From positions 1 through 20,481 of the IMG/VR virus record IMGVR_UViG_3300018868_000057: DNA of 20,481 bases, one strand, 5' to 3'. Made by a program: the position numbers and the translations under genes. Below are positions 12,988-18,383 of the stretch, in pieces. The DNA comes from a virus. The notes beneath the pieces are model-generated. The model saw nothing but the letters and a program-made list of their open reading frames with translations, searched no databases and was not told the origin of the DNA. The first letter of the stretch is position 1, and every line of letters begins with the position of its first letter.

Positions 12988-13281
12988 ATGAACGAACCCT
13001 TCACATCCTCAGAGGCAAAGGCCAAGGGCATTTTATCCGACCGCTACCCCGGCAAGGAGATGTCGAAGCTCTATGCCGAGAACCGCAATCAAGCGACTAT
13101 CGATATGTTGAGGGATGCCGTGTTCACTTTGATTACTAACGAGATTCCCACTTGCACGATTGCCCAAGTTCTTCGCAAAACCCACGGAGCAATCCAGTAT
13201 CACCTCCGCTATCTTGAGGGGGACGGCAAACTCAAGAGACGCAACAAGCGATGCCATTGGCGGGAGGCCGTTGAAGCGTGA
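12988..13281 (+). CDS. Small winged-helix-like protein (97 aa)
   Basis: ATG 12988 follows a 55-nt non-coding gap. The C-terminal two thirds look like a winged helix: DAVFTLITNEIPTCTIAQVL, then RKTHGAIQYHLRYLEGDGKL and the basic end KRRNKRCHWREAVEA. The AxQYHLxxLExxGxL pattern is that of ArsR/MarR-like recognition helices. Its stop overlaps the GTG of the methyltransferase (GTGA), so the two are probably co-translated, and it could regulate that gene. Exact family unknown. Confidence 0.68.
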   Translation: MNEPFTSSEAKAKGILSDRYPGKEMSKLYAENRNQATIDMLRDAVFTLITNEIPTCTIAQVLRKTHGAIQYHLRYLEGDGKLKRRNKRCHWREAVEA

Positions 13282-14246
13282 ATGAAAACCCAACCCACCT
13301 CGACTTGTTCAGCGGTATTGGAGGATTTGCTCTTGCCGCTGGATGGGCTGGATTTGAAACCGTTGGGTTCTGCGACAACGAACCCTACGCACAAGCCGTC
13401 CTCAAAAAGCATTGGCCTAGTGTCCCAATCCACGAAGACATCAAAACGCTCGATGGCACGGCATATCGAGGAGTCACTCTTCTCACAGGAGGATTTCCCT
13501 GCCAGCCGTTCAGTTGTGCCGGGAAGCAACGAGGCAAGGACGATGACCGCTATCTCTGGCCGCAAATGCTCCGAGTCATACAAGAGGCAAGGCCAGATTG
13601 GATCGTTGGTGAGAATGTTGCTGGCATCATCGGCTTGGCACTCGACAAAGTGTGTTCTGATTTGGAAGCGTGCGGATATGAAGTCGAGCCGATCATTATT
13701 CCAGCTTGCGGTGTCGATGCCCCGCACAGAAGAGACAGGGTTTGGATTATGGGCAACGCCAAATTCAATGGACACTCTGCCAGCAAGAACGGAAGCGGAT
13801 TGCTCCACAAATCAGAAGAACAGACAGGGGAGATCGAGGAGCGGGAATCTTCGGGAGCAAGTTGTTCATCCAAAAATGTGGCCGACTCCAAATGCGATGC
13901 CAAGGGGAGCGCATACAGGCAAGATGAGCGGAAAAGTCAGCGAGGACGGGAAAACAAGAATATCATCGAACGGAACGAGGCGGGGAGCAACCTTGCAGAC
14001 GGCGGCAAAGATGTGGCCTACCCCAACGGTGGACAATTCAGCCAATGTGAATCCCAAGGACAACAGATTCAGATGCCTTGTCAGAGCGGTGAACGAGTCT
14101 GCGGTGTGCGATGGCTCGCTGAACCCGGCTTGGGTCGCTTGGCTAATGGGATACCCAACCGAGTGGCTAAACTTAAAGGACTGGGCAACGCCATCGTCCC
14201 GCAAGTCGCATACCAAATTATCAAAGGCATAAGAGAGCTTCTATGA
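13278..14246 (+). CDS. DNA (cytosine-5) methyltransferase
   Basis: The 322-residue enzyme has the C5-methyltransferase motifs: I D9-L-F-S-G-I-G-G (SAM binding), IV GGFPCQPFS with catalytic Cys75, VI G-E112-N-V, VIII H-R-R151-D-R-V-W-I, and X G-N-A-I-V-P-Q-V (about 303-310). Between VIII and X (about 160-285) the target-recognition region is Ser/Gly/Glu/Lys-rich with repeated N/D-V-A-D/Y motifs (NVADSK, DVAYPN). It transfers a methyl group from SAM to cytosine C5 in a recognition site not predictable here, probably protecting phage DNA from host restriction. The GTG start overlaps the previous stop. The gene is covered in the +1 frame by the 13282 frame. Confidence 0.93.
   Translation: MNENPTHLDLFSGIGGFALAAGWAGFETVGFCDNEPYAQAVLKKHWPSVPIHEDIKTLDGTAYRGVTLLTGGFPCQPFSCAGKQRGKDDDRYLWPQMLRVIQEARPDWIVGENVAGIIGLALDKVCSDLEACGYEVEPIIIPACGVDAPHRRDRVWIMGNAKFNGHSASKNGSGLLHKSEEQTGEIEERESSGASCSSKNVADSKCDAKGSAYRQDERKSQRGRENKNIIERNEAGSNLADGGKDVAYPNGGQFSQCESQGQQIQMPCQSGERVCGVRWLAEPGLGRLANGIPNRVAKLKGLGNAIVPQVAYQIIKGIRELL
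13282..14232 (+). CDS. Overprinted protein in the +1 frame of the methyltransferase gene
   Basis: The frame is open for 316 codons inside the methyltransferase gene, starting at ATG 13282, 4 nt after the methyltransferase GTG. Its product has organised features, not shadow-like ones: SLFSQEDFPASRSVVPGSNE, SAWHSTKCVLIWKRADMKSS, LFQLAVSMPRTEETGFGLWA, two MWPTP repeats (199 and 244) with a WATP (157), and SLNPAWVAWLMGYPTEW (279-295). I recall proteins with this order (SSAW-S-T-x-C-x-L-x-W-K, F-Q-L, MPRT, LWPTP, LNPxWVxWLMGxP) near or over phage cytosine methyltransferases, sometimes as separate genes. The known function is unclear; it could modify or partner the methyltransferase. Confidence 0.62.
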   Translation: MKTQPTSTCSAVLEDLLLPLDGLDLKPLGSATTNPTHKPSSKSIGLVSQSTKTSKRSMARHIEESLFSQEDFPASRSVVPGSNEARTMTAISGRKCSESYKRQGQIGSLVRMLLASSAWHSTKCVLIWKRADMKSSRSLFQLAVSMPRTEETGFGLWATPNSMDTLPARTEADCSTNQKNRQGRSRSGNLREQVVHPKMWPTPNAMPRGAHTGKMSGKVSEDGKTRISSNGTRRGATLQTAAKMWPTPTVDNSANVNPKDNRFRCLVRAVNESAVCDGSLNPAWVAWLMGYPTEWLNLKDWATPSSRKSHTKLSKA

Positions 14247-17563: not shown

Positions 17564-17634
17564 ATGAATGTTTCCTTATCATCCTTGCCACCCTCGGCTT
17601 GCTAGGATTGATTCTGCCATACTTTGACGAATGA
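17560..17634 (+). CDS. 24-aa membrane micropeptide in a stop/start chain
   Basis: GTG 17560 overlaps the previous stop and its TGA (17632-17634) overlaps ATG 17631 of the next gene, so it is linked to both neighbours (GTGA and ATGA). The peptide (NECFLIILATLGLLGLILPY, then FDE) is a single hydrophobic helix with acidic ends. Such exact double coupling is hard to explain by chance, although at 24 codons the evidence is mostly architectural. Function unknown. Confidence 0.55.
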   Translation: MNECFLIILATLGLLGLILPYFDE

Positions 17635-18383
17635 AAACCCCTTGCATAGTTTCCTTTGGGGGGGGGACAAACTCTGCGGCTTTGCTTATTGAAATGCAAA
17701 AGCGAGGAGTTATTCCAGACCTTATTTTGTTTGCCGATACCGGAGGAGAGCTTCCGCAGACCTATGAGTTTGTTCAGATATTTTCTCAATGGCTAGTTCA
17801 GCGCAATATGCCAGAAGTAATTACCGTGAAGTATGCCAAGGAAACGCTTGAAGAGAATTGCTTGCGCCAAAACATGCTTCCCAGTTTGGCCTACGGATTC
17901 AAGGGATGCTCACAGAAATACAAGATTCAGCCACAAGACAAGTTCGTGAACAACTGGCAACCCGCTAAAGATTGTTGGAAGGATGGGGGCAGATGCCTAA
18001 AGCTAATTGGATATGATGCTGGCGAACATCACAGAGCAAAGATACCAGAGGATAAGAAATATATATATGAATATCCCTTAGTACGATGGGGATGGGGAAG
18101 GAAGAAATGCGTTGAGGTTGTGGCGGAGGCTGGATTCAAACCAGCCAAATCATCTTGTTTCTTTTGTCCAGCTATGAAAAAAAACGAGGTTTTAGACTTG
18201 GCAAAAAACCACCCAGACCTTGCAGAAAGGGCGGTGGAAATGGAAAACAACGCTCGCCTTACAAGCGTGGTTGGCCTTGGAAGAAATTGGAAGTGGGAAG
18301 ATTTAATTAAGTCTGACGCAAGCCAAATGAAGCTATTTGAGGACTTGCCAGATGAAGTTCCTTGTGGATGCTATGACGGATGA
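17631..18383 (+). CDS. PAPS-reductase-like PP-loop ATP-binding protein
   Basis: The N-terminal PP-loop is S8-F-G-G-G-T-N-S15, the SGGxxS variant of the PAPS reductase/ATP pyrophosphatase superfamily, followed by L-I-L-F-A-D-T-G-G-E (31-40). Later motifs are KGCSQKYKIQP with Cys93, L-I-G-Y-D-A-G-E-H-H-R-A and SSCFFCPAMKKNE with C176xxC179. The cysteines suggest an iron-sulfur cluster or thiol chemistry. Phage members are often called PAPS reductases, but sulfate assimilation is unlikely; thiolation or other modification of nucleic acid is a plausible use. The P-loop glycines are coded by a run of nine G (17658-17666). Starts and ends are coupled to its neighbours. Confidence 0.85.
   Translation: MKTPCIVSFGGGTNSAALLIEMQKRGVIPDLILFADTGGELPQTYEFVQIFSQWLVQRNMPEVITVKYAKETLEENCLRQNMLPSLAYGFKGCSQKYKIQPQDKFVNNWQPAKDCWKDGGRCLKLIGYDAGEHHRAKIPEDKKYIYEYPLVRWGWGRKKCVEVVAEAGFKPAKSSCFFCPAMKKNEVLDLAKNHPDLAERAVEMENNARLTSVVGLGRNWKWEDLIKSDASQMKLFEDLPDEVPCGCYDG

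Follow-up and report, generated by a model that had tools for sequence, protein, structure and literature searches.

The small subunit (~176 amino acids) of the C5-cytosine methyltransferase M.EcoHK31I is reportedly specified by an alternative, overlapping reading frame. As described in PMC3404938, M.EcoHK31I (YGGCCR) is a two-polypeptide C5 methyltransferase (Lee, Kam and Shaw 1995), in which the large subunit carries motifs I–VIII and X together with a predicted recognition domain, and the small subunit contains motif IX. M.AquI (CYCGRG) is a further split C5 methyltransferase; its small subunit houses motifs IX and X, and its recognition region is divided (PMC3404938). The multispecific C5 methyltransferases of Bacillus phages, as cited in PMC8936443, are single-chain enzymes whose specificities have been tested. 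Here we describe a phage locus that very probably encodes a C5 methyltransferase split by overprinting, in which one frame would provide a catalytic subunit with motif X (alpha) and the +1 frame a subunit comprising recognition modules and motif IX (beta).

Two overlapping reading frames at a phage methyltransferase locus

The window, the whole stretch of DNA analysed here, is the complete IMG/VR record IMGVR_UViG_3300018868_000057 (20,481 bases) and contains a gpA-type terminase gene. The initial annotation had reported two ORFs with starts 4 nt apart in GTGAATG, the second in the +1 frame, and these coordinates were reproduced exactly (Table 1). The frame 0 product, alpha, matches PF00145 (E=2.6e-44) and phrog_363 (E=4.3e-79), and displays the C5 methyltransferase motifs I (FSGIGG), IV (PCQ), VI (ENV), VIII (RRDRV) and X (GNAIVP). 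The alignment of M.HhaI to alpha covers only residues 15–169 of M.HhaI, corresponding to motifs I–VIII, and no similarity to M.HhaI was found in alpha past motif VIII. This alignment, in combination with the segment-wise selection described below, indicates that the recognition region and motif IX are absent from the alpha chain. The +1 product, beta, matches phrog_1008 (E=1.5e-30), which, like phrog_363, carries the label 'DNA methyltransferase'. There was no match to beta in Pfam or NCBIfam, and a sequence search of solved structures found no beta relative. The beta motifs listed previously, LWATP, MWPTP (twice) and LNPAWVAWLMGYP, are all present, and the peptide MLLASSAWHSTK lies within approximately residues 88–150.

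Two further features were observed around such loci. A gene resembling phosphoadenosine-phosphosulfate reductase is located at 17631–18383 of the window (a weak Pfam match) and also at L028:4067-4741 and L034:4441-5346, within a few kb of alpha/beta in these three unrelated phages. In L014:2997-3713 a 1-base difference from the window in the catalytic domain, either a sequencing error or a real mutation, fuses alpha residues 1–94 to the beta frame.

Table 1. Features of the overprinted locus (window positions) and of related loci (L numbers).
Feature	Position or locus	Strand	Evidence or remark
alpha, C5-cytosine methyltransferase ORF, GTG start, 322 aa	13278..14246	+	motifs I–VIII, linker, motif X
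beta, +1 ORF, ATG start, 316 aa	13282..14232	+	phrog_1008 match; purifying selection in beta frame
GGGAGG, possible ribosome-binding site common to both starts	13262..13267	+	sequence; putative function
GTGAATG start pair: alpha GTG, TGA stop of upstream gene, beta ATG	13278..13284	+	
beta residues 1–87, shadow of alpha motifs I–IV	13282..13542	+	open, without protein conservation; predicted disordered
Candidate internal beta start M88, GAGG and AAGGA upstream	13543..13545	+	
Dual-coded segment, beta 88–154 over alpha up to motif VIII	13543..13743	+	both frames selected
alpha motif VIII, APHRRDRV	13719..13742	+	
beta candidate recognition module 1 (WATPNSMD...VVHPKM)	13750..13878	+	module common to 25 betas
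beta candidate recognition module 2 (WPTPNAMPRG...LQTAAKM)	13879..14013	+	module common to 20 betas
beta candidate recognition module 3 (WPTPTVDNSA...NESAVCDG)	14014..14115	+	module common to 11 betas
alpha residues 159–300, linker shadowing beta modules, stop-free	13752..14177	+	
beta motif IX-like segment, SLNPAWVAWLMGYPTEWLNL	14116..14175	+	family-wide conservation; M.HhaI likeness by eye
alpha motif X, LGNAIVPQ	14181..14204	+	selected in alpha frame
Actinophage adjacent-gene split methyltransferases	L209:2291-3524; L210:2420-3515		nearly without overlap
Tract loci	L086, L005/L093, L096, L097, L099, L004/L064, L071, L081		
Tract loci, continued	L083, L088, L094, L108-L110, L115; L105, L106		GA repeats in L105, L106

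The open +1 frame is not a product of chance

The length of the +1 frame was compared with a null in which synonymous codons were permuted within the methyltransferase gene, with the protein and codon usage fixed. In the window the longest open +1 stretch is 316 aa, against a mean of 154 aa in 200 permutations (P ≤ 0.005; the permuted maximum was 305 aa in one run and 321 aa in a second run on the unchanged sequence). A long +1 frame is retained by nearly all of ~110 relatives (80 found by searching with the methyltransferase frame alone); the longest open stretch is ~250–320 aa in most, compared with a permuted mean of ~110 aa, with the proviso that the loci are partly related and open-frame counts are therefore not independent events. 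Beta profiles built from viral and phage loci were also scored on 20 bacterial genes and on permuted versions of these genes. The profile of beta 88–155 scored ~67–113 bits (permuted means 25–49), while that extending from the recognition region to motif IX scored ~55–108 bits (permuted means 2–18). Codon permutation thus rules out chance or compositional openness of the +1 frame, and the view that a second protein frame overprints the methyltransferase almost throughout is upheld in the window and in nearly all of its ~110 relatives.

Selection switches frame from segment to segment

Where two frames overlap at +1, a base at a wobble position in one occupies a non-wobble position in the other, and thus the positions of substitutions reveal which frame is constrained. 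Across 1,928 viral pairs, alpha wobble sites account for 63% of the changes in the catalytic part and beta wobble sites for 72% of those in the recognition part; for comparison, neighbouring single-frame genes have 68–70% of changes at their own wobble sites. A sliding view displayed selection on alpha to around beta residue 100, joint constraint to residue 140, then selection on alpha at motif VIII, on beta from GLWATP through MGYPxxW, and again on alpha at motif X.

A stricter test used 62 disjoint pairs in a frame-neutral nucleotide alignment, where each locus appears once and deeper ancestry is shared between pairs. Motifs I–VIII are selected in alpha, except within beta 88–155, where purifying selection acts on both the beta frame (dNN/dNS 0.35, dSN/dSS 0.31) and the alpha frame (0.16 and 0.14, respectively). 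The recognition region and motif IX are selected in beta. In the recognition region the beta frame is strongly constrained (dNN/dNS 0.16) and alpha is near neutral (dNN/dSN 0.80), with a slight alpha constraint persisting (dNS/dSS 0.63). Motif X is selected in alpha (0.11). Outside beta 88–155 the selected frame depends on the segment, and bacterial pairs agree with this pattern.

These data confirm the expectation that substitution analysis of both frames across relatives would reveal purifying selection on the +1 frame, which is evident in beta 88–155, the recognition region and motif IX. The proposal that the region encoding NVADS/DVAYPN is co-shaped by two codes fails, dual shaping not being clear there: the +1 frame is strongly selected there, while the methyltransferase is near neutral at the amino-acid level, although its frame is nonetheless stop-free. 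As the recognition region is near neutral in alpha and constrained in beta, the +1 protein is most likely the recognition subunit. The initial annotation had suggested that the +1 protein may tune methyltransferase specificity; a bearing on specificity is consistent with these data, but mere tuning of a self-sufficient methyltransferase is not (alpha 0.80, beta 0.16).

Why both frames stay open, and where beta starts

In 173 of 176 loci the alpha frame runs through the recognition region without a stop, whereas permutation of the beta codons predicts 6.8 such loci; most simply, alpha needs to extend this far to include motif X. In the Brevibacillus borstelensis locus (L193), where it is the beta ORF that encodes motif X, alpha terminates after motif VIII; the former alpha frame contains 11 stops versus 9.8 expected, which is the chance rate. 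This locus (L193:2238-3522) may be a natural intermediate or a reversion. In two other loci, L131 and L190, a single stop lies in the alpha linker between motifs VIII and X, reflecting a pseudogene, an error or another route to motif X.

Of 180 loci, 67 combine the (A/G)TGAATG pair with a beta frame that is open. The beta N-terminus is open in 69 of 71 loci that have the start pair (23.8 expected), versus 17 of 96 that lack it (28.9 expected, and thus at chance or below; Fisher P 7e-28). Since the N-terminus is open only where the start pair exists, beta probably starts 4 nt past the alpha start in the clade of the window and internally elsewhere. Among paired viral loci, 68 of 81 have an ATG near that of M88, as do 75 of 79 unpaired bacterial loci, and a Shine–Dalgarno-like word almost invariably accompanies it; this is weak evidence for an M88 start because the Shine–Dalgarno-like bases double as codons of a conserved alpha motif.

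Beta as a mosaic of putative recognition modules

Beta proteins consist of a small dual-coded domain over the second half of the catalytic domain of alpha, one to five modules of ~40 residues and the segment LNPxWVEWLMGYPxGW, which, by eye, resembles motif IX of M.HhaI. The 368 beta modules have a mean length of 40 residues; shared modules are found at differing positions, and modules recur in different orders across phages and bacteria. The three modules of the window beta (34–45 residues each) fall in recurrence clusters of 25, 20 and 11 betas, the first of which includes bacterial proteins. Beta is thus a mosaic of exchangeable modules, which may each contribute to target recognition. The earlier description of the +1 product as having no known function is too weak in view of the motif IX-like segment and of homologues that represent the target-recognition half of split methyltransferases. 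In a Paenibacillus plasmid (L032:4004-4405) a separate small ORF, directly downstream of the overprinted alpha/beta gene, encodes a single WPTP module and a motif IX-like end, and is perhaps a spare recognition cassette.

Two AlphaFold runs on beta gave models of low confidence. Residues 1–76 are predicted to be disordered (pLDDT ~42), while the 88–155 region is predicted to adopt a helix-helix-strand-strand arrangement (mean pLDDT 66–79). Fold searches with Foldseek and VIA-align 2 returned nothing usable, an outcome that points in neither direction, and the structural evidence overall is weak.

Distribution and annotation of the overlap

A tblastn search with beta matched 77 phage records. 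A second clade, mainly enterobacterial, comprises 226 phage records, 70 of them of Escherichia, and includes phages that are easily handled in the laboratory; the representatives of this clade that were checked have the layout of the window, except LR134256 (L198), in which the gene is apparently broken. The bacterial collection was scanned with a narrowed beta alignment, the full alignment being without a conserved stretch, and yielded 277 matches. In all of the best 80 of these, beta lies at +1 over alpha, and these loci span Bacillota, Proteobacteria, Acidobacteria, Bacteroidetes and others. The statement in the initial annotation that such products occur over or beside other phage methyltransferases was correct, the former being the rule and the latter rare. 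Both frames are annotated in some Paenibacillus phages and one frame in other records. In Pseudomonas phage PMG1 (L201) and cyanophage Cy-LDV1 (L031) it is beta alone that is annotated as a DNA methyltransferase, with alpha unannotated. A search of the literature available to us found no paper on this overlap in phages.

Repeat tracts and possible frame switching

The recognition part of some viral relatives contains poly-G tracts (8–12) or GA repeats, often exactly at the motif VIII junction; the window alpha/beta gene has no such tract. There are 25 tracts in 94 kb of alpha/beta gene, compared with 13 in 430 kb of flanks. Module frames are swapped in 9 of 20 tract loci versus 2 of 85 loci without a tract (Fisher P 2e-6). 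This association suggests slipped-strand phase variation, with metagenome assembly error as an alternative. Slippage at the poly-G or GA tracts of some phages could move cassettes among the catalytic, beta and third frames. Combined with the wider proposal that, for a large group of C5 methyltransferases in hundreds of phages and bacteria, specificity resides on overprinted, swappable +1 cassettes, this forms a joint reading that we consider tenable but fall slightly short of favouring. If true, a virus would possess a means of switching frames, and thereby methylation specificity, by phase variation.

Relatives without overprinting

Gordonia phage Float294 and Mycobacterium phage LHTSCC contain adjacent gene pairs that overlap by only 14 and 26 nt, respectively, both members being annotated as DNA methylase or methyltransferase. 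The first gene encodes motifs I–VIII, while the second, which has its own start and is +1 relative to the first, encodes beta-type modules, motif IX and a motif X-like end (GNGVVPQ in Float294). Both shadow frames contain stops. The beta profile matches Float294 gp61 with a probability of 96% (E=1.4e-9), and the second genes of the two phages are the stand-alone homologues of the +1 product that had been sought. These non-overprinted relatives serve as natural controls for the overlap. Single-frame fused relatives, expected in actinophages, were absent from the three records examined, which instead displayed the tandem split (Float294, LHTSCC) or the overprinted arrangement (XFactor).

Alternative explanations

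A programmed +1 frameshift near motif VIII would generate one chain containing motifs I–VIII, the modules and motif IX, possibly with a shift back for motif X, and would render the upstream beta frame incidental. The selected frame does switch in the vicinity of motif VIII and a second time ahead of motif X, and in some G-tract relatives (L086) motifs I–VIII are joined in frame to the modules and motif IX. Selection on the beta frame upstream of the switch nevertheless argues against a pure frameshift, beta 88–155 lying well before the junction (dNN/dNS 0.35, dSN/dSS 0.31). In addition, the beta frame is open back to a start codon, alpha is kept open downstream where a frameshift product would not need it, beta possesses a separate start in Float294 and LHTSCC, and an unsystematic look at standard members noticed no conserved slippery sequence at the junction. 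We therefore regard a frameshift as improbable. We consider it equally improbable that beta is a distinct protein that regulates or inhibits the methyltransferase, or host restriction, with alpha keeping its own recognition region. This reading is favoured by the published placement of the M.EcoHK31I recognition domain on the large subunit (PMC3404938) and by the weak alpha constraint in the recognition region (dNS/dSS 0.63). Against this, alpha is without motif IX and its recognition region is near neutral, and in Float294 and LHTSCC the beta-type protein is the recognition half (modules, IX and X) of an enzyme whose first gene stops after motif VIII.

The least credible explanation, with a very low probability, is that conserved methyltransferase codons leave the +1 frame open as a by-product that is not translated. 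Certain peptides that look conserved, among them FSQEDFPAS and SMPRTEETGFG, mirror the invariant methyltransferase motifs IV and VIII, and beta 1–87 behaves exactly as a by-product would, the explanation holding there at the amino-acid level. For beta residues 88–298, however, it is effectively refuted by the codon-permutation nulls, the beta-frame ratios of 0.13–0.35 and the stand-alone homologues.

A model for a probable split methyltransferase

In the split enzyme that we favour, frame 0 would yield alpha, consisting of an AdoMet-binding/catalytic domain (I–VIII), a non-conserved linker and motif X, while frame +1 would yield beta, comprising the dual-coded small domain, three exchangeable recognition modules and motif IX. 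A single ribosome-binding site may serve both starts, with internal ATGs as alternatives. We propose that alpha and beta assemble, such that beta provides target recognition in trans. The presence of three modules suggests more than one methylated target sequence, and the enzyme probably shields phage DNA from restriction.

If this model is true, a class of phage and bacterial 'DNA cytosine methyltransferase' annotations would describe half an enzyme, a specificity predicted from the annotated frame would rest on a near-neutral linker, and the part that chooses the site would sit in a frame often missed by annotation. The locus also represents an unusually clear near-complete same-strand overlap, which is long, widespread and split segment by segment between the two frames.

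Comparison with known systems

The window products match phrog_363 and phrog_1008, families whose labels are silent on their mutual overlap and on half-enzyme status. The proposed enzyme would operate in the manner of M.EcoHK31I, and the distribution of motifs is similar to that published for it, with I–VIII and X on one polypeptide and IX (here assigned by eye) on the other. PMC3404938 assigns the M.EcoHK31I recognition domain to the large subunit, whereas here the recognition region under selection lies in beta, a mosaic that can contain as many as five modules. The locus further differs in its two starts, spaced by 4 nt, and in its phage carrier, in which no adjacent restriction enzyme was noticed. 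This comparison is made with the published description of M.EcoHK31I, and the locus may belong to the same class.

Like the multispecific enzymes of Bacillus phages, beta contains several ~40-residue units in tandem, here putative recognition units. Unlike in those single-chain enzymes, the putative units belong to a second, overprinted protein and are known from sequence alone. The layout of the window also resembles that of M.AquI in having a partly separate recognition region and a second polypeptide with motif IX, but differs in that motif X is in the alpha frame rather than with IX on the small subunit. The M.AquI layout, in which X accompanies IX, is more closely resembled by the Brevibacillus borstelensis locus and by LHTSCC and Float294, the last on the basis of its motif X-like segment.
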